A stretch of 38,805 nt of DNA, from the NCBI RefSeq assembly GCF_018704065.1, contig NZ_JAGUQP010000007.1, positions 61,762-100,566 on the forward strand. Direction: 5' to 3'. This document shows, in pieces, positions 8,719 through 24,483 of the stretch. The DNA is from Desulfovulcanus ferrireducens. Its GTDB lineage: Bacteria > Desulfobacterota > Desulfovibrionia > Desulfovibrionales > Desulfonatronovibrionaceae. The translations under genes and the position numbers were made by a program. The number at the start of each line of letters is the position of its first letter. Within the stretch, counting starts at the first letter, position 1. The notes beneath the pieces were generated by a model, which was not told the DNA's origin, did no database searches, and saw only the letters and a list, made by a program, of their open reading frames with translations.

Positions 8719-9060
8719 ATTTTTGAGGAAGTTTATCATGTACGTGGCTGGATGAACTATTACGGGATATCGGAGTATTACCGGCCAATCCCGGAGATAG
8801 ATGAATGGCTACGTCGGCGGATAAGGATGTGCTATTGGAAACAATGGCGCTATACCCGTACCAAAGTCCGTAACCTTCTCAAGTTAGGTACACCCAAAAA
8901 ACAGGCTATACATACAGCACTAAGCCGAAAAGGGCGCTGGCATTTAGCCCGGACGCTTGCAGCTCAGAGTGGTATGACCAATAAATGGCTATATGAGCAA
9001 GGATTGATTTCTGTCAAAGAACAATGGGTAAAGATTCACTACCCGGCTACGGCCCGGTGA
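8719..9060 (+). pseudogene. ltrA: Group II intron reverse transcriptase/maturase, C-terminal fragment
   Basis: From VRGWMNYYGISEYYRPIPE the frame runs through WLRRRIRMCYWKQWR, TRTKVRNLLKLGTPKKQAI and HLARTLAAQSGMTNKWL to the stop at 9058-9060. This is the GIIM/maturase thumb and DNA-binding end of the LtrA-type family. The reverse-transcriptase domain is absent; upstream the frame closes at a stop at 8716. An ATG at 8752 could give 102 residues, but this is probably dead coding DNA. Confidence 0.85.
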
Positions 9061-9138
9061 TCTTGATGAACCGCCCTGTGCGGACCCGCACGCAGGGTGG
9101 TGTGGGGGCTGGGGGAGAAAGACCCCCGGCTACCCGAT
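8719..9138 (+). mobile_element. Group II intron remnant 1 (3' end)
   Basis: The C-terminal end of an intron-encoded reverse transcriptase is followed by about 80 bases that match the 3' end of the second copy (17525-18374). A 27-base stretch at 9072-9098 is identical to 18308-18334, and both copies end in CTACCCGAT. The segment holds the domain V/VI hairpins. The 5' part of the intron and most of the enzyme gene are gone, so it cannot splice alone. Confidence 0.8.
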
Positions 9139-9189
9139 TGGATGCTTTTTATTTTACCCTGCTCCATCTTATTAACTCCATTTATCAAA

Positions 9190-10797
9190 TCATGGAAGTT
9201 CTGGCAGGCCAAGTTCTTTGAGAAACTCGTTATGTTTCCGGGTGGCTTCGGATATCTTACCCGCCAGATCAGTGAGTTCTGCATGTACCTGTGTTAGATC
9301 CACAGGCTCCTCTGGTTTAGCAGTGCTGACATAGCGGGAGATGTTGAGGTTGAAATCATTCTCTTCAATCTCTTCCATACTCACTCGGCGGGAGTAACGC
9401 TCCTCTTCCTTGCGGAACTGATAGGTTTCGATGATCTTGTCAATGTGCTCTGGCAACAGCACATTCTGGCGTTTACCCTTTTCAAAGTGCTCGCTGGCGT
9501 TTATGAAAAGCACATCATCATATTTTTTGCATTTCTTCAGCACCAGGATACACACCGGAATACCTGTGGAATAGAAGAGCTTGGGAGGCAGCCCGATCAC
9601 TGTATCGATATTGCCATCCAGCAGCAGTTTCTTGCGGATTTTTGCCTCCTTTCCACCGCGAAACAGCACGCCGTGTGGCAGGATGATGGCCATAGTGCCT
9701 TCCCTGTGTAGAAAGTGAAAGCCGTGAAGCAGAAAGGCAAAGTCGGCGGCGGATTTTGGTGCCAGGCCATAGCCCTTGAATCTGAAATCCTCGGCCAGTT
9801 CCTCGGTAGGCTTCCAGCGGTAACTGAAAGGGGGATTGGCTACCACCGCATCGAATTCGATCTTTTTGGCCGGGTTCTCCTCCCTCAGCAGCGGCCACTC
9901 ATTGAGCAGGGAATCTCCGTGAAAAATCTCGAACTCGGTATCTTTGAGCCCATGGAGCAACATGTTCATCCGCGCCAGGTTATAGGTGGTGATGTTCTTT
10001 TCCTGGCCGTAGAGCTTGCCCACGCCGTGCTTGCCCATACGGCGGCGCACATTGAGTAGCAGCGAACCTGATCCGCAAGCAAAATCCAGCACTCGCTTGA
10101 GCTTGGCCCTCTTGCCGGTGGCTGGCTCCTGGCTATCCAGAGACACGATACCGGAGAGAATGCTGGAAATCTGTTGCGGCGTGTAGAACTCCCCGGCCTT
10201 CTTGCCGCTGCCTGCGGCAAACTGGCCGATTAGATATTCGTATGCATCCCCCAAAAGGTCCCGGTCAGTAGGAAATTCTGCCAGTCCTTCGGCGATCTTC
10301 TGGATGATGGTACAGAGCCGATCATTGCGTTGCTTGTAGTTTTTGCCCAGCTTCTCCGAGTCGAGGTTAATTTCCGAAAATAGCCCCTGAAAGTTGCTGG
10401 AAAAAGATTCGTTTTCGATGAACTTGAAGCCTTTTTGCAGAGTACGCAGCAGTTCCTCGTCCTGAGTGCGCGCCATATCGGCAATGCTACTCCAGAGGTA
10501 CTGGGGTTTGATGACATAATGCACCTTGCGGCGCATCAATTTTTCAAACTCTTCAATGTCGTTCGGATTTTGCTCATACCAGACGGCCAATGGTGAGCGG
10601 CGATCTCCCTTGTCCAGCTTGGGCCAATCAGGGCCTAACTCTTTTTGGGCCGCTTCTTCGTAGTTGTCCGAGAGATAACGCAGAAACAAAAAGGCAAGCA
10701 TGTAATCACGGAAATCGTCCGCGTTCATGGCCCCGCGCAGCTCGTCGGCAATGGCCCAGAGTGTTTTACCTAGTCGCATTTGTTCCTGTTTGGTCAT
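9190..10797 (-). CDS. hsdM: Type I restriction-modification methyltransferase subunit HsdM
   Basis: This 535-residue protein has the HsdM N-terminal helical domain (LWAIADELRGAMNADDFRDY) and the N6-adenine methylase core. Motif I DFACGSGSL lies at 238-246 and the catalytic NPPF at 321-324, with GEFYTPQQI just before motif I, as in all HsdM. It methylates adenine in the target site together with HsdS, which supplies specificity. It is the last gene of the operon. Its ATG overlaps the stop of the nuclease gene (ATGA at 10794-10797), so the two are translationally coupled. Length is normal and all key motifs are intact. A group II intron remnant ends about 50 bases beyond its stop. Confidence 0.95.
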   Translation of the reverse strand: MTKQEQMRLGKTLWAIADELRGAMNADDFRDYMLAFLFLRYLSDNYEEAAQKELGPDWPKLDKGDRRSPLAVWYEQNPNDIEEFEKLMRRKVHYVIKPQYLWSSIADMARTQDEELLRTLQKGFKFIENESFSSNFQGLFSEINLDSEKLGKNYKQRNDRLCTIIQKIAEGLAEFPTDRDLLGDAYEYLIGQFAAGSGKKAGEFYTPQQISSILSGIVSLDSQEPATGKRAKLKRVLDFACGSGSLLLNVRRRMGKHGVGKLYGQEKNITTYNLARMNMLLHGLKDTEFEIFHGDSLLNEWPLLREENPAKKIEFDAVVANPPFSYRWKPTEELAEDFRFKGYGLAPKSAADFAFLLHGFHFLHREGTMAIILPHGVLFRGGKEAKIRKKLLLDGNIDTVIGLPPKLFYSTGIPVCILVLKKCKKYDDVLFINASEHFEKGKRQNVLLPEHIDKIIETYQFRKEEERYSRRVSMEEIEENDFNLNISRYVSTAKPEEPVDLTQVHAELTDLAGKISEATRKHNEFLKELGLPELP

Positions 10798-11900
10798 TCA
10801 GTTCTCTCCCCTTCTTCATACTCAGGGAACAATTCCGGGTTAAAGCGGTAATTGTTCATAAAGTCTCGCAATATTTTACGGAAAATTTCTTTGTTTTCAT
10901 CCAGCATTTCCACAGGTTCAAAAAGAGAATAATTGCCGTGGCTGAGCAGTTGCACATATCGATAATGTATCATTCCATCTTCATCGTCGGGCTCCCGTTT
11001 TATTATGTCTCCGAAATGATTAAAACCATGGAACGTGGCCGTCTTTTCCATGATGCTCCGCAGGATCGTGAAATGGTAGGTGTATAGCTGGCCTGACTCT
11101 GCGGCTTGATTTAGTTCCTTGAGCATGGCTACATGATAGAAGCGGGGCGTATGACCTGTGTCTCGTAACAGAAAGCCATCTGCATCCTTGCTTAAAAAAT
11201 AGCGCTGTGCCCTTTTCATTTCATTGCACAGCACATTGAAAAACAGGCTGTGGTGTGACGATATCACCGTCCTAACACGATCCTGTTGCTTCAACATGTG
11301 GGCCAGATGCGCCGCCACGGCTATGGCGTTATTATCGTCCAGCGACGAAATGGGATCGTCGATATAGATAAATTTCACCCACTCATAGGCTCCCTGGCCG
11401 TCAATGGCAAGTTGGGCAATGGCAAGAAAGAAACACCAGATAAAGATGTTTTCCTCACCACGAGAAATCTTAATCAAAACCGGCTCATCCTCTCCATCCG
11501 CATTTTCGCGCATTTCACGCCAAAATCGGATGGTGCCACCCTCATAGTCGATGTCAAATTCAAAATCCGTATAGCGGTGCAGAAAAGCGCGGATACGACT
11601 CTCCATTTCCAGCTCGGCTAAGCCGTTGAAGAAGCGGGATGCAGTGTTCATTTTCAGCACCCGCTCGCTGTCGTTCTCCAGGTCGTTGTCCCATGTGAAA
11701 AGATCCTCGGTGAAAGCATTGAAGTAGAGGGTGTCGCGCTGGTCACCATGCTTGCCCAGATCCTTAAAGGCCATAGAAAGCCGCGTCTTGCCTGTGCCGT
11801 TGTAAGCAAAGAGCAGAATGACTTTCTTGTTTTGGCTGCGCAGGTGTTGCGCCAGTGCATCAAGATCGGGAAAGGTCTGGATATTATCGCTACGTGGCAT
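10794..11900 (-). CDS. prrC: PrrC/RloC-like anticodon nuclease with ABC-type ATPase domain
   Basis: This 368-residue protein has Walker A at 33-40 (YNGTGKTR), an ABC-like signature ISRGEEN at 145-151, Walker B with D-loop at 176-190 (KFIYIDDPISSLDDN) and an H-switch SSHHSLFF at 214-221. The C-terminal part carries R281-x3-E285 and H321 in LLSHGNYS. The R-x3-E...H triad and its spacing fit the anticodon-nuclease triad of PrrC (R320, E324, H356 in E. coli). PrrC sits in a type I hsd locus, is held inactive by the Hsd complex and cleaves tRNA-Lys when a phage inhibitor disturbs restriction. I do not see the PrrC box thought to recognise tRNA-Lys, so the substrate may differ. It starts three bases after hsdS ends and overlaps hsdM. 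Confidence 0.8.
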   Translation of the reverse strand: MPRSDNIQTFPDLDALAQHLRSQNKKVILLFAYNGTGKTRLSMAFKDLGKHGDQRDTLYFNAFTEDLFTWDNDLENDSERVLKMNTASRFFNGLAELEMESRIRAFLHRYTDFEFDIDYEGGTIRFWREMRENADGEDEPVLIKISRGEENIFIWCFFLAIAQLAIDGQGAYEWVKFIYIDDPISSLDDNNAIAVAAHLAHMLKQQDRVRTVISSHHSLFFNVLCNEMKRAQRYFLSKDADGFLLRDTGHTPRFYHVAMLKELNQAAESGQLYTYHFTILRSIMEKTATFHGFNHFGDIIKREPDDEDGMIHYRYVQLLSHGNYSLFEPVEMLDENKEIFRKILRDFMNNYRFNPELFPEYEEGERTE

Positions 11901-11903
11901 CTC

Positions 11904-13088
11904 TTACGCCATCTCCTGCGGAAATAGCTGCTGCATCAGTCCTTTTTTATGAGCCTTGAGAGCCTCAAGTTTCTGCGATTGAAGCTCGATCAGTTCATCG
12001 ATTGAAGAAAGACATTCAGCGATTTTTTGTTGTTCGGACTCTCTTGGTAAAGCAGTTTTTAGAACATAGACATCATTCCGGTTGAGGCCGGGTACGGTTC
12101 CATTGTCAGAAAGGCTCGGGAGATGTGAATTTTCTAGCAATAGCTTCACGAAAAAGAGCTGACAATTGGGAGATTTCATTTTTACATAAAATGTTGTGTC
12201 TATTGGGTAGCAATCCGATTCAATCCAATTCACTTCACCAACAGAGCCTTTTCTCCCTATGATAATAACGGGTCCAGAAATTAGGGCCTCCTTATGAAAT
12301 CCAACGACCCCATTGGAACCGACCACTGGAATAGAACCATCCAAGCGGGATTCTTCTGGCAAAGAACTGCCATATTCCAAAGTCAATAACTCTCCAAATC
12401 TATATCTTGTCCACGGCCCTGTATCCCGAAATTCGGGAAGGCGCAGGCGAGGGACGGTTTCTCCCTCGGCGGGAAAGAGCTGCTGCATCAGTCCCTTTTT
12501 GTGGGCCTTGAGGGCGTCTAGCTTTTGCGTCTGAAGCTCGATCAGTTCATCAAGAGAAGAAAGGCAGTCGGCGATTTTTTGTTGTTCTTCTAATTTTTTA
12601 GGGGTGGGAATGGTAAACAGTGAAAACTCATTTTTATTGATAATGGGCATGGCATTATTTGCCTGCATTGCTTTAATAGTAGGCGTTGCACGCAACAACG
12701 AATAATAAATAAATTCATTATAAAAATTATTATTTACTATGATGCTGTTTATCTGTTGGTTTGTGATACACGGAACAGCAGTTAAAGCTATCTTTCCAAT
12801 TGAGGCAATACATGTGTACGCAATACTTCCAATTGGAAGAACCTTCATTTTTGCTTGTTTAACAACTGATCTTTCAGATGTTCTTTGGTATTTAACTTCA
12901 TCGTTTATATCAGTAGGTGTTACAAATGCGATATCTCCATTCCACAAACTGTCATCATTTGTCTTGGGGGTTTTCCCCGTGATTATCTTCCCAACCTCCC
13001 CCAACCGTTTCACCTCCCATGGCCCCGCATCCCGGAACTCGGGAAAGCGAAGTTTCGGCACTACGGTCTTTTGCTTCTGCCTGTTCAT
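11904..13088 (-). CDS. hsdS: Type I restriction specificity subunit HsdS
   Basis: The start is ATG at 13088, overlapping the dinD stop in ATGA; the same frame is open upstream but only as a shadow of dinD. The 394-residue protein has two target-recognition domains. Each opens with a LRFPEFRDAGPWE-like segment and ends in a conserved helix (LSSLDELIELQTQKLDALKAH, then LSSIDELIELQSQKLEALKAH). The first domain contains GKTPKTNDDSLW, the second GSIPVVGSNGVVGFH. Each domain reads one half of a bipartite DNA target. The two conserved helices are strongly similar at DNA level (about 11910-12030 and 12458-12590), so domains could be exchanged by recombination. Specificity cannot be read from the sequence. 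Confidence 0.93.
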   Translation of the reverse strand: MNRQKQKTVVPKLRFPEFRDAGPWEVKRLGEVGKIITGKTPKTNDDSLWNGDIAFVTPTDINDEVKYQRTSERSVVKQAKMKVLPIGSIAYTCIASIGKIALTAVPCITNQQINSIIVNNNFYNEFIYYSLLRATPTIKAMQANNAMPIINKNEFSLFTIPTPKKLEEQQKIADCLSSLDELIELQTQKLDALKAHKKGLMQQLFPAEGETVPRLRLPEFRDTGPWTRYRFGELLTLEYGSSLPEESRLDGSIPVVGSNGVVGFHKEALISGPVIIIGRKGSVGEVNWIESDCYPIDTTFYVKMKSPNCQLFFVKLLLENSHLPSLSDNGTVPGLNRNDVYVLKTALPRESEQQKIAECLSSIDELIELQSQKLEALKAHKKGLMQQLFPQEMA

Positions 13089-13927
13089 TTTCCCTCCAGC
13101 CCTTCGGGATTTTTGAGCGCCTTTTTCTGCTCGGTGGTCAGGCGGCGCTGAACCTTTTTCACATCCTCTTCCGGCGGCAGGTTTTCCGGGCGAATACCTC
13201 GATTGAGCAGGGTCCGGCGCACGGCCTGGTTGTTGGTGACATGCTCTTGTGAGATTTCCGGCTCGCTTTGCATATTTTGCTCGCGGGCGTTGTGGATGGT
13301 GATTTCGGTGGCGAAATCCTTGGCCTTGAGGACGATGGTGGGTGCGAAGTCGGCCAGCGGACGGTTGGCGGGCACCTTCCAACGGGCTTTCATTTCCCAC
13401 GTGCTCTTGCCGAACAGGGCCTGATCGCCCTTGCTGCGGATGAGGGCAAAATTCTTGTTGCCGCCAGTCTGCTCGTAGATAATCTTGGAGAGCTCCTTTT
13501 CGGTGTCGGCCAGTTTGCGGCGTGCCGATACCCGTTCGGCTTCCAGCATGCGTTGCTCAATTAGTTCCGCCTTGCGTGTTTGCATGGCGAAGTAGGTCTG
13601 GGCGAAAGCAATAGGGGGCTTGGAAGAATCGCCGTTCTGAGCGATAAGATAGCAGGCGTATCGAGTGAGCATGATATCGGGAATTTTGCGGCGGCTGCCG
13701 GAACCGAGTTCGACCATTTTCCCGACATCGGCAAAATGGTCCTCAATAGCGTGGCCGGACAGTTCGCAGGCAGTCTTGGCCTTGGATATCACATTCAGAA
13801 AGTTATCCCACTTGCTGTAGCCTAGCAGGTGCTGGAGGTCCCGCGCTAGCCAGTATTCTACGCCGTTTTCCGTCTCCTGGGCATGCGCTTCAAAGGTTTC
13901 GGTCATCTGCATGACTTCATTTTGCAT
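13085..13927 (-). CDS. dinD: DinD-family (DNA damage-inducible protein D) protein
   Basis: This 280-residue protein has YWLARDLQHLLGYSKWDNF, a Bro-N-like segment near residues 25-45, then ARYACYLIAQNGD-like text (LTRYACYLIAQNGDSSKP) and IAFAQTYFAMQTRKAELIEQR, all typical of DinD. In E. coli DinD is an SOS-induced protein that antagonises RecA filaments; homologues are found within type I restriction operons. It lies between hsdR (15-base gap) and hsdS (ATGA overlap), so it is probably made with the complex. The ribosome-binding site is GGGAGGAAAACC before ATG. No LexA-type box was evident to me upstream. The molecular role within the operon is unknown. Confidence 0.88.
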   Translation of the reverse strand: MQNEVMQMTETFEAHAQETENGVEYWLARDLQHLLGYSKWDNFLNVISKAKTACELSGHAIEDHFADVGKMVELGSGSRRKIPDIMLTRYACYLIAQNGDSSKPPIAFAQTYFAMQTRKAELIEQRMLEAERVSARRKLADTEKELSKIIYEQTGGNKNFALIRSKGDQALFGKSTWEMKARWKVPANRPLADFAPTIVLKAKDFATEITIHNAREQNMQSEPEISQEHVTNNQAVRRTLLNRGIRPENLPPEEDVKKVQRRLTTEQKKALKNPEGLEGK

Positions 13928-13942: not shown

Positions 13943-16906
13943 TCATTGTTCATAAACCTCTAACCCTGAAATCTCTTTGCCCTGGGCAAGCTTGCGCAAA
14001 AGCGGCGTAAGGTCGTCCATAAGTTCCAGTTCCTTTTTTGCCCGTGCCTTCCAACCCAGGCCCAGGGGAGCGAGCAATTCGGTAAGAGCATCGGCATCAA
14101 AAATCATACGATCCAGAATCCCGTTAACGAAGGATTGAAGGGCATCGGTCGAAAGATTGTGCTTTTGAGCGATATTCTCGAGCTGGCGGGCATGTTTTTC
14201 AGCCTTGAACCGTTCGTAGCCGTCACGGATTTCCTTTTCCGTCAGACCTTCGCCTTCTTTAAGGGTATTCACATATTCGATCAGTTCCTCCCGCTCATCA
14301 AGAAATTTGGCATTACTGGAAAGCAGGCCGATGATCTGCTCGCGGGTCATCTTCTGTCTTTTAGGCTCTTTTTCGCTAAAGCGGGCGATAAGTTTCATGA
14401 TATAGTCGTAGTCAATGAGCGCGGAATCAAACAGCACGAACTCGAAGTCGAGCTGTTGCACCGGATCGTCAGGATCGGTGGTCTTATCCTGCTTCTTTTT
14501 CAACTGCTCGGCCACGTCGAGATAGACACCTCGGAACGCCTGCAGGTTATCTTTGGGCAGCAGTTTTTCTATTTCTTCACGGAGTTGCTCGTCAAGATCA
14601 GTGTACTGGTCGAGCTGGGTTCTAAGGCGCTGCACCTCTTTGAAGTGGTTAATGAAGGCAGTGCGGGCATCATCGCCCCTTAGGTTGGCCACTTCCTCCG
14701 GTCGGCAATCCAGCCCTTGCGACTGCATGAACTCTTTGAGTTGGTCAAACGCTTCCTCAAGCTTTTCCACCACCTTGGGAGCAGGATCCACCAGCCAGAT
14801 CTCCCTGGCGCGCTCGCCTGCCTCACCGGAAAATAAAGTGATGGCCTCATCCACGGCGGCCTTCTGGGCACGGAAGTCGAGAATGTTGCCGTAGGGCTTG
14901 GAATCGTTGAGCACCCGGTTGGTCCGGGAAAAAGCCTGGATCAGTCCGTGGTATTTGAGATTTTTATCTACATAGAGGGTATTGAGATACTGTGAATCAA
15001 AGCCGGTGAGAAGCATATCAACTACAATGGTGAGGTCGATCTTCTTATCGCGCGGTAAATCGCTGTTTAAGTATTTCTGGTCCTTGATGCGCTGCTGCAC
15101 ATCCTGATAGTAAAGGTCGAAACTACCTATATCAAAGTTAGTGCCGTAGCGCTGATTGTAGTCGGCAATAATGGCCTGGAGCGCTTCCTTCTTCCGGTTT
15201 GGTTCTTTCTGGTTATCGGCCTTCTCCTGGGGCAGGTCTTCCTGAAGCTGGGCAATGTCCCTGTTGCCATTGGCTGGTGGCGAGAAGACGCAGGCCACAT
15301 TGAGCGGCCGGAAATTTTCATCATCTGCCATTCTTTGCGCCTGTATTTCCTTAAACAGCCGGTAATACTCGATGGCGTCGTCGATGGATGCGGTGGCCAG
15401 GAGAGCGTTGAATCTACGGTGATTGGTGGCTGCGTCATGTTTTTCCAGTATGGCTTCAACTACCTTTTGCTTGGTCAGGATTTCACCCGGCTTGATGGGA
15501 ACTCCTTCGGGTTTATAATAGTCCACATGGAAGCGCAGCACATTACCGTCGTCAATGGCGTGGGTGATGGTGTAGCCGTGGAGCTGCTTCTCAAAGATGT
15601 CGGCAGTGGTGACCATCCGCGCTTCTTGGCCTTCAATGGTGCGATAGGTAGCGTTTTGCTCGAAGATGGGCGTGCCAGTAAAGCCGAAGAGCTGGGCTTT
15701 GGGGAAAAATTCACGAATGGCCTTGTGGTTCTCGCCGAACTGGGAGCGGTGACATTCGTCGAAGATAAAGACAATGCGTTTATCCCGCAGGGGTTCAAGC
15801 CGTTTGCGGTATTCCTTCTTGTGGTTGCTGTCCAGAGCCAGGCCGAGCTTCTGAATGGTTGTAACGATGACCTTATCGGCGTAGGCGTCGGAGAGCAGGC
15901 GCCGCACAAGGGTTTCGGTGTTGGTGTTCTCTTCCACGCATCCTGGCTGGAAGCGATTGAATTCCTGCCGGGTTTGGCGGTCCAGATCCTTACGATCAAC
16001 AACAAACAGGACCTTTTCAACGTCCGGATTGTCCTTGAGAAGGGTTGATGCCTTGAAGGATGTGAGCGTTTTACCGCTACCGGTGGTATGCCAGATATAG
16101 CCGTTGCCGCGATTTTGATGAATACAATCCACAATGGCCTGGACCGCATAGATTTGATAAGGACGCATCATCATCAGCTTGCGCTCACTCTGAATCAGCA
16201 CCATGTAGCGACTAATCATCTCGGCCAGGGTACACTTGGCAAGAAATGCCTCAGCAAAATCATCAAGGTGAGTAACTTTTTTATTTTTGGGATCCGCGAA
16301 CTGATAAATGGGCAGAAAGCGCTCATCAGAATCGAAGCGGAAATGTTCCTGATTGTTATTGGCAAAGTACCAGGTATTGCTGCGGTTGCTGACTATGAAC
16401 AGTTGCATGAAGCAGAGCAGGCTGTTGGTATAGCCATTACCGGGCGCATGTTTGTATTCGAGGATCTGCTGCATGGCCCGGCGTGGGCTGATTTGCAGGC
16501 TCTTCAGCTCGATCTGTACCAAGGGCAGGCCGTTGACCAGCAGGATCACATCATAGCGGTGAAAACTGCTTTTTGTGTTGATGCGTAGTTGGTTGACCAC
16601 CTCAAAGCTGTTTTTGCACCAGTCCTTGAGGTTGACCAGTTGATAATGCAGCGGAGTGCCGTCTTCGCGCTCGAAAGTATTGCGATGGCGCAGGGTCTCG
16701 GCACAGGTAAAAACATCCGGGCTGATGATACTGTCGAGCAGACGCTCAAACTCGGCATCGGTGAGTCGGACACGGTTGAGCGCCTCGAACTTCTCGCGAA
16801 AATTTTTCTCTAAAGCATCACGGTCACGGATATCATCGCGGTGTATGTATTTAAGTTCTTCAAGCTTTTTGATCAGCCCTTGTTCGATTTCTTGTTCTTT
16901 TATCAT
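13943..16906 (-). CDS. hsdR: Type I restriction endonuclease subunit HsdR
   Basis: This 987-residue protein carries the PD-(D/E)xK nuclease site in the N-terminal domain (D119 in HRYDVILL, E133 and K135 in QIELK). The superfamily 2 translocase follows, with Walker A HTTGSGKT at 273-280, DECH at 383-386, GFTGTP shortly after and a helicase C domain including DMLLTGFDSQYLNTLYVDK. The C-terminal helical HsdR domain is present. It translocates DNA and cleaves unmodified targets when bound to HsdM and HsdS. It is the first gene of the operon and its sequence is complete. The whole operon is richer in GC than flanking genes, pointing to separate acquisition. Confidence 0.95.
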   Translation of the reverse strand: MIKEQEIEQGLIKKLEELKYIHRDDIRDRDALEKNFREKFEALNRVRLTDAEFERLLDSIISPDVFTCAETLRHRNTFEREDGTPLHYQLVNLKDWCKNSFEVVNQLRINTKSSFHRYDVILLVNGLPLVQIELKSLQISPRRAMQQILEYKHAPGNGYTNSLLCFMQLFIVSNRSNTWYFANNNQEHFRFDSDERFLPIYQFADPKNKKVTHLDDFAEAFLAKCTLAEMISRYMVLIQSERKLMMMRPYQIYAVQAIVDCIHQNRGNGYIWHTTGSGKTLTSFKASTLLKDNPDVEKVLFVVDRKDLDRQTRQEFNRFQPGCVEENTNTETLVRRLLSDAYADKVIVTTIQKLGLALDSNHKKEYRKRLEPLRDKRIVFIFDECHRSQFGENHKAIREFFPKAQLFGFTGTPIFEQNATYRTIEGQEARMVTTADIFEKQLHGYTITHAIDDGNVLRFHVDYYKPEGVPIKPGEILTKQKVVEAILEKHDAATNHRRFNALLATASIDDAIEYYRLFKEIQAQRMADDENFRPLNVACVFSPPANGNRDIAQLQEDLPQEKADNQKEPNRKKEALQAIIADYNQRYGTNFDIGSFDLYYQDVQQRIKDQKYLNSDLPRDKKIDLTIVVDMLLTGFDSQYLNTLYVDKNLKYHGLIQAFSRTNRVLNDSKPYGNILDFRAQKAAVDEAITLFSGEAGERAREIWLVDPAPKVVEKLEEAFDQLKEFMQSQGLDCRPEEVANLRGDDARTAFINHFKEVQRLRTQLDQYTDLDEQLREEIEKLLPKDNLQAFRGVYLDVAEQLKKKQDKTTDPDDPVQQLDFEFVLFDSALIDYDYIMKLIARFSEKEPKRQKMTREQIIGLLSSNAKFLDEREELIEYVNTLKEGEGLTEKEIRDGYERFKAEKHARQLENIAQKHNLSTDALQSFVNGILDRMIFDADALTELLAPLGLGWKARAKKELELMDDLTPLLRKLAQGKEISGLEVYEQ

Positions 16907-17524: not shown

Positions 17525-18374
17525 GTGTACGCCCGGCATGGGCGTGAGCTTATGGGGTTCAAGTCCCCTGTAAGGGTTCCTATGCTAAAATAATTTAGCC
17601 CAAATTACTAGCCGAAGGCAAGGGGCTTACTGCGAAGTAAGCTCTGAAGGAAGCCGGAGTGCAAAGATGTAGGCCGACGAACAGAAACGTCATATAAGGC
17701 CGAGTCTCCGGGTAAGACAGCACAACATGTCAAAGCCCTGGGAACAGGGGACACGGTAAATGGCGCGGTCGTGCATCGGAAGTTCACGCTCTTATCCGGG
17801 GAGACCTGTTTTCCTTGCGGTAAAATTTTGTTTCCAGTGAAAACACCGGCTGGGGCCACCGGTATAATGTCCCGGCACAGACAATGGAAGCCTCTGCCTT
17901 GTCTGTGAAATACAAAACAAAGATAAGCAGACAGGAGACAAAACTTACAGCGCCATAGGGAGTAATCTGTATGGTGAGAAAATAGGAGCCAGCAGAAGCC
18001 ATAGTAACCAAATGCTAGGAGTAATGTCATGGACATGATGAAGGGCCGAACATCAAGAGAGGCAGAGAAAAAGGTTTCTATGAACACTGAACATACGTTG
18101 AACCCGATAATTCAGCGGGCCATAGCCCAGGTTTGGTACATCCAAAAGACTGGCCATGAGTCGTAAGGGATCATGGGATTTAGCCCACACTCTGGTGGCA
18201 CAAAGCGGCATGACCAATGAATGGCTGCACCAGCAAGGATTGATTTCTGTCAAAGAACAGTGGGTGAAGATTCACTACCCGGCCACGGCCCGGTAATCCT
18301 GATGAAACGCCCTGTGCGGACCCGCACGCAGGGTATTGTGGGGGCTGGGGTAGAAAAACCCTCGACTACCCGAT
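17525..18374 (+). mobile_element. Group II intron 2, internally deleted (about 850 bases)
   Basis: The 5' end GTGTACGCCCGGCATGGGCG resembles the GUGYG start and first helix of bacterial group II introns. It is followed by about 500 bases of structured, GC-rich RNA-like sequence. The 3' end has the domain V/VI hairpins and closes with CTACCCGAT, as in remnant 1. Between them the enzyme gene is cut down to its first 44 and last 43 codons. Both RNA ends survive, so it might still splice if a helper enzyme acts in trans. The insertion falls exactly at the AIPR stop codon: joining the flanks gives TAA again, so that gene is not truncated. Confidence 0.8.
18029..18295 (+). pseudogene. ltrA: Intron-encoded reverse transcriptase with deleted core
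   Basis: ATG 18029 opens MDMMKGRTSREAEKKVSMNT, an intron-enzyme N-terminus, ending at a TAA after KTGHES. Directly downstream, in another frame, SRKGSWDLAHTLVAQSGMTN and LISVKEQWVKIHYPATAR match the C-terminus of remnant 1. The catalytic core of roughly 400 codons has been deleted at the junction near 18157-18162. Confidence 0.85.
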
Positions 18375-20089
18375 TAGGAGTAAATATGCTTCTTTAGTTG
18401 GTCAATATAAGTAGAAGTCTTAAGTTTGTCTCGGTCAACTTCACCAACAGCCTCAATAACATTAGCCGCGTTTTTAAAATAGTTGAGGGTTTTATCTGTT
18501 AATTCTTTGCAAGCATTGATGATAGTTTCACAATATTTTTCTATTTTCTTTTCTTCTGTCAGGCGTGGATTTGACTGTTGAGTAATAATATGCTTAAGGC
18601 ATAGTAGTAAATGCCATTTATATTTTCTATAATTCGTAGGAAGTCGTCCGTTAGCGATAAGTAAATGAATCCTATATAATGCAAGTGATGCAGTATAATA
18701 AGCTATTGGATGATTCTGCTCATCAAATAATTCCTCAGACAGCTCTTGGAACATTTGAGTGGGATATCTAGCTGCTAAATCAGCACGCTCAAAGAACATA
18801 GAAGCTACAGATCTGGCAAGTTCTTTTAAATCGAATATTCTAATTTCTGGGATTCCCAGCCCGACAAATTGCTTAGATCTTCTCTCAAAGTATAATTTTA
18901 TTTCTTCATTTCCTTCTTCTCCCATTGCGTTAAAAAACTGTTCAATTTTTCTTACAATTGGCCTCAAAGATAGAAATTGTACTTCTTCAACTTTTGTCTG
19001 ACTATTTGTAGCTCTGATGACTTCACTTACTAAATCTTGATTCTCTACCTCAATTATTTTTGCAGTTAACATCACGGAGTCATCAACATGATCACGATAT
19101 AAATAGAGAATATAGCTAGTTTGACATCCATTTACTATTTGAAAGTTTTCTATATAAATATTGTCACTTTGCACTTTGACATTTGGAGCAATAATAGTTA
19201 TACCATTATTAAGTACTGCAAATTTATCTCTTTGATTAGGATTTATTATTGTTTCTATAATTTTCTTATTTACCGGATTATCTTCTCCCAAGAACGACCT
19301 TACGTTTTCCTCAAAAATGTACGTTCTAAGTTTACCTTCCTGATCAGACAACACCCGTTCAATCAGATGTTTAGCGGGCACAATGCAAATATAAGATTCT
19401 TCTATTCCTTCAATTTCTGGGAGTGGTAAATAACCTTTGACCTCTAATCTTGCTTCTATATTTGACCAGGTTGCAGTCCAAAGATTAATGAGTTGATCAC
19501 GATCAATGGGGGCTACATTTACATCAGAAAACAATCCTGTTTGCTTTAAAATTTCATTCATATTCTGTAATGAAGCTGCTATTTCTGGCTCCTCCTTATA
19601 AGTTCCTGTCGTAACATAAAAAGCATGACATATTGGTTTTCCACGGGAAACTTTACCAACATTGTCTATAATAAAAGAAAAGACGTTATGAGCTTCTTGT
19701 AATGTAGAATCCATTGGTAAGTTAGGACTTTCCTTAGTAAAATCCAGTACAGCATCCGAAAATTTTACTATACCGTCCCTTTTAAAAGAATCAGTTGTTT
19801 TAGCTTGTATAAAAATAATAGTTACTTCTATTTCACGCTTTGGTCTCTTAAATATCTGTTGGGCTTCATCTTGAGTAGTGACAAGTTCTCCATCTATTAT
19901 AAATGCTATCCCATCAATTCCACATTCAGGATCGCCAGTGGTAAGATGCTCTGGCTTAAATCTTGCTGGATAATACCTTGAAATAATAGAATAGTTTGCA
20001 AACTGCTCAAATTGCTTGCTAACTTCTTTGTCTATAATTGAATATTCTTCAGCAAATTTTTTTAAATGACTTTTAATTATTCTATCCAT
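18374..20089 (-). CDS. AIPR family (abortive infection phage resistance) protein
   Basis: The start ATG 20089 is preferred because GGGGAG lies just before it; ATG 20101 would add four residues. The 571-residue protein has an N-terminal segment with G-I-D59-G and Q95-A-K97 (IIFIQAKTT), a pattern suggesting a restriction-endonuclease-like fold. The AIPR hallmark follows: NVRSFLGEDNPVNKKI and FAVLNNGITIIAPNV near residues 265-305, then IVNGCQTSYILY. AIPR proteins are named for phage abortive infection; the mechanism is poorly defined. An intron copy abuts its stop codon, and a large structured element lies about 30 bases upstream of the start. Its low GC differs from the restriction operon next door. 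Confidence 0.88.
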   Translation of the reverse strand: MDRIIKSHLKKFAEEYSIIDKEVSKQFEQFANYSIISRYYPARFKPEHLTTGDPECGIDGIAFIIDGELVTTQDEAQQIFKRPKREIEVTIIFIQAKTTDSFKRDGIVKFSDAVLDFTKESPNLPMDSTLQEAHNVFSFIIDNVGKVSRGKPICHAFYVTTGTYKEEPEIAASLQNMNEILKQTGLFSDVNVAPIDRDQLINLWTATWSNIEARLEVKGYLPLPEIEGIEESYICIVPAKHLIERVLSDQEGKLRTYIFEENVRSFLGEDNPVNKKIIETIINPNQRDKFAVLNNGITIIAPNVKVQSDNIYIENFQIVNGCQTSYILYLYRDHVDDSVMLTAKIIEVENQDLVSEVIRATNSQTKVEEVQFLSLRPIVRKIEQFFNAMGEEGNEEIKLYFERRSKQFVGLGIPEIRIFDLKELARSVASMFFERADLAARYPTQMFQELSEELFDEQNHPIAYYTASLALYRIHLLIANGRLPTNYRKYKWHLLLCLKHIITQQSNPRLTEEKKIEKYCETIINACKELTDKTLNYFKNAANVIEAVGEVDRDKLKTSTYIDQLKKHIYS

Positions 20090-20119
20090 AGGTCTCCCCA
20101 TGATTCATTTAATACTCCT

Positions 20120-23071: not shown

Positions 23072-23419
23072 ATGCTGGAAGAATTAGGGAAACCCATGAC
23101 CGTTCAGGACGTGGCGACAGCACTTGGACTTCCAGAAAAATGGGTATATACCCATTGGGCAGATTTAGGCGGGATAAAACTTGGTCGCCATGTTCGGTTC
23201 TTTGAAAAACGAATAGTGGAGGTTATAAATGGCCTACAAAAGAATACGCAAGGGCAAGGTGCAATGGTTGGCCGAGGTAAGGGTAATGGTTCAAGGGCGT
23301 ATGGTAAGGAAAACCAAAATCTGTTCCAGCAAGACCGAGGCTCTGAAATGGGAACTGGAGATCAAAGAGAACCTGCAAAAGCAAAACACCCGGATGACAA
23401 ATTCGGAATTTTCAGTTGA
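23072..23419 (+). CDS. Excisionase-like helix-turn-helix protein
   Basis: ATG 23072 is preceded by AAGAGG. Residues 6-55 form a MerR/HTH_17-like winged helix of the excisionase type (PMTVQDVATALGLPEKWVYT, then KLGRHVRFFEKRIVEVI). This type usually binds att sites or the integrase promoter. The remaining 60 residues are read out of frame with the start of the integrase gene for 191 bases and look like basic low-complexity text. The functional protein may need only the first 60 residues. The long overlap could couple its translation to the integrase. Confidence 0.7.
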   Translation: MLEELGKPMTVQDVATALGLPEKWVYTHWADLGGIKLGRHVRFFEKRIVEVINGLQKNTQGQGAMVGRGKGNGSRAYGKENQNLFQQDRGSEMGTGDQREPAKAKHPDDKFGIFS

Positions 23420-24323
23420 GCAAGAACCGACTTGTGCAAAATGGGCGACTGCATATCTGGAATTCTGCCAGGACAGAGTAACTCCAAGAGTCTGGCAGGA
23501 AAAAAAAGATGCTCTTGAACGTTTTTTCAAGGGAAGCTCTCCAGACATGCTGGTCAAGGAGATAACTTCAGAACTGGCAATGAACAAACTGAAAAAACGG
23601 AGACAGGAGACAACAGGGTATCAGGCAAACAAGGATCTGGTTCACTTAAAGGCTGCCTGGAACTGGGGACAGAAATATTTGTCTGGCTGGCCGCAGGTTC
23701 CAAATCCTTTCAATTTGCCTAAGTTCCCTTATAAAAAATGGACAAAATATGTTCCACCCATAGAAGATGTTGAAAAAGTGCTGGACGTGATGAGGCCCAG
23801 AGATAAAACCATGCTGTTATTCCTTTTGCATACTGGGGCGAGAAAGAATGAGGTGTTTAACCTGAAATGGAAAGATGTTGATTTTGCCAATAATCAGGTA
23901 TGGTTGACAACCAGAAAGAGAAGAGGTGGCATGGAAGAAAGGGATACTGTTCCTCTTACAAGCGAGCTTAGACAGGCCCTGTTGAACTTGAGAGCAGAAA
24001 GCGGTCAGTATGAGCATGTGTTTGTTACCAAAGAGGGTAAGCCATACAAGGATCGTAGTGCATGGCTTCCCAGGGCCTGTAAAAAGGCGGGAGTGAAAAC
24101 TTTCCGTTTTCATGCAATCAGACATCTGACCGCTTCCTGGCTGGATGCCCATAATGTGCCTTTAACCACGATCCAGCGAATTTTAAGACATAGAAATCCA
24201 CATACAACGGCCAGGTATTTGCATGAACTCAGAGGTGTCCAGGTAGATCTGGATGCAATTTTCAGCCGGAAAAAACCGGCAAAGATTCTGGAGTTTAAAA
24301 AAGAAAAAGCCTCTAATGAATAG
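23229..24323 (+). CDS. int: Tyrosine integrase of the tRNA-Arg island
   Basis: This 364-residue protein opens with an arm-binding domain (MAYKRIRKGKVQWLAEV, about residues 1-50). The SAM-like core-binding domain (70-150) and catalytic domain follow. R205 in HTGARKNEV, K230, H295-x-x-R298 in FHAIRHL, H321 in LRHRNP and nucleophile Y330 in ARYLHEL are all present, so it should be active. It ends 83 bases from the 3' end of tRNA-Arg, the classic place for an island integrase, and probably inserted the accessory DNA to its left. TGCCAACCAG repeats just downstream may be its arm sites. The HTH gene ahead of it may be its directionality factor. Confidence 0.92.
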   Translation: MAYKRIRKGKVQWLAEVRVMVQGRMVRKTKICSSKTEALKWELEIKENLQKQNTRMTNSEFSVEQEPTCAKWATAYLEFCQDRVTPRVWQEKKDALERFFKGSSPDMLVKEITSELAMNKLKKRRQETTGYQANKDLVHLKAAWNWGQKYLSGWPQVPNPFNLPKFPYKKWTKYVPPIEDVEKVLDVMRPRDKTMLLFLLHTGARKNEVFNLKWKDVDFANNQVWLTTRKRRGGMEERDTVPLTSELRQALLNLRAESGQYEHVFVTKEGKPYKDRSAWLPRACKKAGVKTFRFHAIRHLTASWLDAHNVPLTTIQRILRHRNPHTTARYLHELRGVQVDLDAIFSRKKPAKILEFKKEKASNE

Positions 24324-24330
24324 AGGCTTT
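24294..24330 (-). terminator. Minus-strand terminator downstream of tRNA-Arg
   Basis: AAAGCCTCT (24306-24314) pairs with AGAGGCTTT (24322-24330) across a 7-base loop. On the minus strand the stem runs into TTTTTCTTTTTT. It would end transcription of the tRNA-Arg unit and overlaps the last codons of the integrase. Confidence 0.75.
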
Positions 24331-24339
24331 AAAAAAAAG

Positions 24340-24372
24340 TGCCAACCAGAACTGCCAACCAGGTCTTTGGCA
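24340..24372. repeat. TGCCAACCAG direct repeat near the attachment site
   Basis: TGCCAACCAG occurs at 24340-24349 and 24353-24362, with an inverted TTGGCA at 24367-24372. Located between the integrase gene and the tRNA 3' end, it is a candidate set of integrase arm or excisionase sites. Confidence 0.4.
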
Positions 24373-24406
24373 ACTGTTCGGCATATTCATAACCTATTGA
24401 AATTAT

Positions 24407-24483
<77 letters not shown>

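Follow-up and report, generated by a model that had tools for sequence, protein, structure and literature searches.

A PrrC-type anticodon nuclease predicted in a type I restriction operon of Desulfovulcanus ferrireducens

The gene located between hsdS and hsdM in a type I restriction–modification (R-M) operon of Desulfovulcanus ferrireducens encodes a PrrC-type enzyme, an assignment strongly supported by sequence comparison. It is very probably a guard of its own R-M enzyme, predicted to be latent, released by phage and directed most likely against tRNA-Lys. By analogy with PrrC of Escherichia coli (EcoPrrC) and PrrC170 of Klebsiella quasipneumoniae, the protein would be kept latent on the complex of HsdR, HsdM and HsdS. 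As in characterised relatives, a phage protein that inhibits the R-M enzyme would trigger NTP-dependent movement of the ATPase domain and free the C-terminal nuclease, which would cut tRNA-Lys(UUU) 5' of the wobble base, stopping translation so that the phage cycle would not be completed. Restriction-linked tRNA nucleases are numerous, and this protein is one more representative of a group that is widespread and already described.

Operon structure and family membership

Coordinates are positions in the window, the whole 38,805-nt stretch analysed (contig NZ_JAGUQP010000007.1). Five genes form an operon on the minus strand, in the order hsdR (13943..16906), a dinD-like gene (13085..13927), hsdS (11904..13088), the prrC-type gene (10794..11900) and hsdM (9190..10797). 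HsdR (987 aa) scores above the cut-off of TIGR00348 and carries an EcoR124_C domain (PF12008, E 1e-69), hence the restriction enzyme is described here as type IC-like; with HsdM and HsdS adjoining prrC, the linkage is that of a type IC-like hsd locus. The dinD-like product, a Bro-N protein, matches NF008573 (DinD) at E 1e-112 and occupies an accessory slot between hsdR and hsdS. HsdS has two Methylase_S stretches and comprises 394 aa when read from the ATG at 13088, in place of the longer version with a GTG start in the list of open reading frames. The modification subunit HsdM (535 aa) scores above the cut-off of TIGR00497. The prrC-type gene has an ATG start and an intact frame of 368 codons for amino acids.

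The genes are tightly packed. The start of hsdS overlaps the stop of the upstream dinD-like gene as ATGA in the sequence; the TAA of hsdS (11906-11904) is separated from the ATG of prrC at 11900 by a three-base gap, GAG; and the TGA of prrC (10796-10794) overlaps the hsdM ATG at 10797, again as ATGA. Counts of consensus promoters and terminators for the operon were near chance.

A preliminary description of this DNA had proposed a PrrC-type anticodon nuclease in a type I R-M operon, placed between hsdS and hsdM by a three-base gap and an ATGA overlap, and possessing an ABC-type ATPase core and a triad, R281-x3-E285...H321, that fits PrrC. The two junctions flanking prrC are read directly in the sequence as above, and the remaining elements are borne out by a profile match, an end-to-end alignment, an invariant triad and a conserved operon order. 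The PADLOC PrrC profile PDLC02360 matched residues 8–356 with 460 bits (E 1.4e-138), and the next-best PADLOC family reached 62 bits. The protein aligns end to end with EcoPrrC at 34.8% identity. The EcoPrrC reference (L092, 396 aa) is encoded on a P1-like E. coli plasmid (CP057875) and was located through such plasmids; a nucleotide search of E. coli had given partial AAA ATPase matches, and the match opened from it (L088) was a copy with the gene order of the window. The reference operon, hsdM-hsdS-prrC-hsdR, has the published EcoprrI order, and its protein has D222, D287, R320, E324 and H356 exactly at the numbers given in the literature (PMC3014915, PMC2610378). A sequence search of PDB chains with the window protein gave no match at a meaningful level, and tblastn against a phage collection found no relative.

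The protein divides into an N-terminal ABC-ATPase domain (residues ~1–240) and a helical C-terminal nuclease domain (~250–355). Alignment with EcoPrrC located the ATPase motifs, namely Walker A AYNGTGKT, a signature-like ISRGEE, Walker B/D-loop IYIDDPISSLDD and an H-motif SSHH. Furthermore, an AlphaFold2 model (mean pLDDT 84.6) matched Rad50/SMC heads over residues 8–258, with Z up to 12.8 and an rmsd of 3.2 over 201 residues.

In the C-terminal domain, R281, E285 and H321 align with EcoPrrC R320, E324 and H356, and the triad is kept in all 108 aligned PrrC proteins, which argues against a chance resemblance. R281 and E285 (11046..11060, minus strand) lie one turn apart on the same predicted helix of the model (residues 275–290), and His321 (10938..10940, minus strand) directly follows a second predicted helix (310–320). 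A Foldseek search with this domain in isolation returned nothing below E 0.5. HEPN structures recurred among its structural matches at Z 5 to 6.2, which is weak, as values under 8 are indecisive for helical domains; the best of them, 8xeh, had Z 6.2 and an rmsd of 3.8 over 95 residues, and an ESCRT domain scored higher at 6.8. PrrC and RloC have been assigned to HEPN (PMC3710099), and the modelled domain is compatible with this fold, though the match itself supports it weakly.

Relatives and two PrrC clades

A single scan of species genomes detected 285 relatives, 80 of which were fetched for analysis of their loci. They are spread over Pseudomonadota, Bacteroidota, Bacillota, Chloroflexota, Cyanobacteriota, Acidobacteriota, Spirochaetota and other phyla, and include two archaeal records (L008, L029). 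The order hsdS-prrC-hsdM was found in 78 of the 80, and hsdR is located upstream in every locus whose contig extends far enough, at times with extra genes between. As the arrangement hsdR-(x)-hsdS-prrC-hsdM recurs across many phyla and in archaea, the window gene can be regarded as an ordinary member of its family. In one exception (L048) the contig stops after prrC. The other, from a mussel gill symbiont (L037), has hsdR and hsdS upstream of prrC, but the 5.9 kb that follow prrC revealed no hsdM; this is possibly a PrrC without a modification subunit, or a rearranged locus.

Close coupling to hsdM is also common. An ATGA closes prrC in 62 of the 80 relatives. The hsdM start could be placed in 73 loci, and in 63 of these it is no more than 10 bases from the end of prrC. 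Tight coupling had been suggested earlier to control the stoichiometry of toxin and silencer; the coupling is real and widespread, however, it does not directly address their ratio. The usual coupling is broken in six loci (L032, L036, L041, L044, L059 and L087), where an additional ~1 kb separates prrC from hsdM; in L044 this sequence includes a dinD-like gene. The slot between hsdR and hsdS, filled by the dinD-like gene at 13085-13927 in the window, is likewise occupied in a number of relatives. It holds dinD in seven of them, a TrlF-type ATPase and an AlbA-type gene in K. quasipneumoniae plasmids, and two unnamed or differently named genes in an E. coli IncC plasmid.

The sampled PrrCs fall cleanly into two clades that match gene order and have different R-M partners. 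In a tree of 108 proteins, 89 from hsdR-hsdS-prrC-hsdM loci (R-S-C-M) and 19 from hsdM-hsdS-prrC-hsdR loci (M-S-C-R) were split by one branch with an SH-aLRT of 100, the latter sample being small and mostly from Enterobacteriaceae. The window protein belongs to the R-S-C-M clade by both tree position and gene order. Members of this clade have a median identity of 35.2% to EcoPrrC. Within the clade, PrrC distances track those of HsdM (r 0.82) and HsdR (0.76) and not HsdS (0.34), and HsdM and HsdR distances correlate with r 0.86. As the genes travel together, the correlation reflects co-inheritance with the M and R subunits and not contact.

EcoPrrC, from the type IC system EcoprrI, thus resembles the window protein in its ABC-ATPase, its C-terminal triad domain, a conserved N-domain block, the position of its gene beside hsdS within a type I operon and alignment along the whole length. 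They differ in gene order (M-S-C-R against R-S-C-M), in length (396 against 368 aa, at 35% identity) and at the EcoPrrC residue D287, which is H250 in the window; identity between the window subunits and those encoded on the EcoPrrC plasmid is also low, at only 36% for HsdM and 33% for HsdR.

The sole experimentally tested system of R-S-C-M order found in this analysis is PrrC170, encoded in K. quasipneumoniae by a set of four genes for HsdR, HsdS, PrrC and HsdM (PMC11555353). PrrC170 is 35% identical to EcoPrrC, and its expression arrests growth; tRNA sequencing identified tRNA-Lys as targeted and depleted, and the system blocks phages T1 and T7, with rescue by a phage tRNA-Lys (PMC11555353). 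It shares its gene order with the window operon, and its identity to EcoPrrC is typical of the window clade, to which it was assigned solely on these two reported features; the window operon differs in its additional dinD between hsdR and hsdS. A plasmid-borne K. quasipneumoniae PrrC (L096) is ~61% identical to the window protein.

tRNA recognition and alternative readings

The published PrrC box, 15 residues long, belongs to the N-terminal ATPase domain, and the tRNA-recognition segment of EcoPrrC, residues 284–294, is separate from it (PMC3014915). A conserved N-domain block, YFNAFTEDLFTWDNDL (residues 59–74; 11679..11726, minus strand), is present in EcoPrrC and the aligned relatives, is nearly letter-identical to the EcoPrrC sequence YYNAFTEDLFYWDNDL and has a box-like size; it is probably the PrrC box. 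The preliminary description had taken the box for the segment recognising tRNA-Lys, which is wrong as the box sits in the N-domain (PMC3014915), and had reported it as not evident; it is probably present as the block shared by both proteins.

The counterpart of the recognition segment is formed by residues 249–256, GHTPRFYH (11133..11156, minus strand), which align without gaps with NDSPFSYH of M-S-C-R relatives (e.g. L104, L095). Here His250 takes the place of EcoPrrC Asp287, a residue thought to touch the modified wobble base (PMC3014915). The EcoPrrC substitutions D287H, D287Q and D287N lowered cleavage of normal tRNA-Lys and reversed the unfavourable effect of hypomodification at the wobble base (PMC3014915), and an altered dependence on modification of the wobble base is plausible for the window protein.

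The two clades differ in their wobble-reading residue, which does not vary across the M-S-C-R sample. Asp fills the column in each of these 19 proteins, whereas the 89 R-S-C-M proteins show Asp (n = 51), Glu (n = 10), Lys (n = 7), Ala (n = 5), Gln, Asn and Ser (n = 4 each), His (n = 3) and Val (n = 1), and the tree implies 24 or more changes. Asp287 is therefore a mark of the M-S-C-R subclade as sampled and not a defining trait of the PrrC family. Variants in this column provide a natural set for testing how PrrC reads tRNA modification.

This variation bears on the most serious alternative, in which the window protein is a PrrC with a diverged recognition segment whose main target is a tRNA other than tRNA-Lys, or a differently modified tRNA-Lys. 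The contrast between the invariant Asp of the M-S-C-R clade and the repeated changes in its sister favours it, as do the effects of the EcoPrrC substitutions on modification dependence. Nor is the idea of varying substrates new, since the recognition sequence was reported to vary among PrrCs and their substrates were proposed to vary too (PMC3014915). Against it, PrrC170, with the same gene order, depletes tRNA-Lys, the host tRNA-Lys has the loop CUUUUAA, and the segment is otherwise conserved (T-P-x-F-x-H). Furthermore, the D287 column belongs to a variable turn and is less variable than 95 of the 368 columns, hence His250 may reflect a lost wobble-base contact instead of selection for new targets. 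Overall, we consider this alternative unlikely. The same low likelihood attaches to a clade-wide form of it, in which R-S-C-M proteins would have abandoned wobble reading by Asp287, varying the residue (His, Asn, Gln, Lys, Glu, Ala), and would act on tRNA-Lys whose modification is reduced or different, or on other tRNAs. If true, loss of Asp287 might suit the modification state of the host or catch phage tRNAs that evade cleavage.

Our best guess, by analogy, is that tRNA-Lys is the likeliest target of the window PrrC, because PrrC170 depletes it and because the host encodes a tRNA-Lys(UUU) with the anticodon loop CUUUUAA, as in E. coli tRNA-Lys, as well as MnmE. An earlier suggestion of a new tRNA specificity does not stand as it was argued, given the probable box, the gap-free alignment of the recognition region with several M-S-C-R PrrCs and the tRNA-Lys depletion by PrrC170; it retains a narrower basis in the replacement of the wobble-contacting D287 by His250.

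The protein could also be a decayed PrrC kept by linkage only, or a structural R-M subunit without nuclease activity. The activity of the window copy is a prediction from sequence, which leaves some room for such a reading; however, the frame, triad and ATPase motifs are all intact, and conservation of the triad in 108 proteins from many phyla makes it very improbable.

Least credible of all is an RloC-like or PtuA-like ABC-ATPase effector in place of PrrC: although the ATPase core is common to these proteins (Pfam AAA_13) and Foldseek lists PtuA and Rad50 heads, both identities were rejected on length, the missing zinc hook, profile scores (460 bits for PrrC against 62) and neighbouring genes, as the 368-aa sequence contains no CXXC zinc hook and is half the length of RloC (658-897 aa; PMC2610378), and no PtuB-like gene was seen beside it. 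RloC shares the ABC-ATPase and an R-x3-E...H triad in its C-terminal part, however, it is twice the size, has a zinc-hook coiled coil, mostly occurs without linkage to R-M operons and excises the wobble nucleotide.

Genomic setting of the operon

The PrrC operon appears to be carried on a genomic island of ~25.4 kb, a reading based on an integrase gene beside a tRNA gene and a repeat of the tRNA 3' end. The integrase gene adjoins tRNA-Arg(UCG) (24407-24483, minus strand; the pair spans window positions 23229-24483), and the last 22 bases of this tRNA recur with one mismatch on the same strand at G000:C7:60786-60807, ~1 kb to the left of the window. Remnants of a group II intron lie in direct orientation on both sides of the R-M operon. 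The left remnant (8738-9139) is a 3' fragment with the maturase end and domains V-VI, and the right one (~17605-18375) looks like an internally deleted copy; a fuller copy is present at G000:C8:83605-85535. An abortive infection gene of the AIPR/AbiU family (18374-20101; PADLOC AbiU, 385 bits) adjoins the operon, hence the island holds at least two predicted defence systems.
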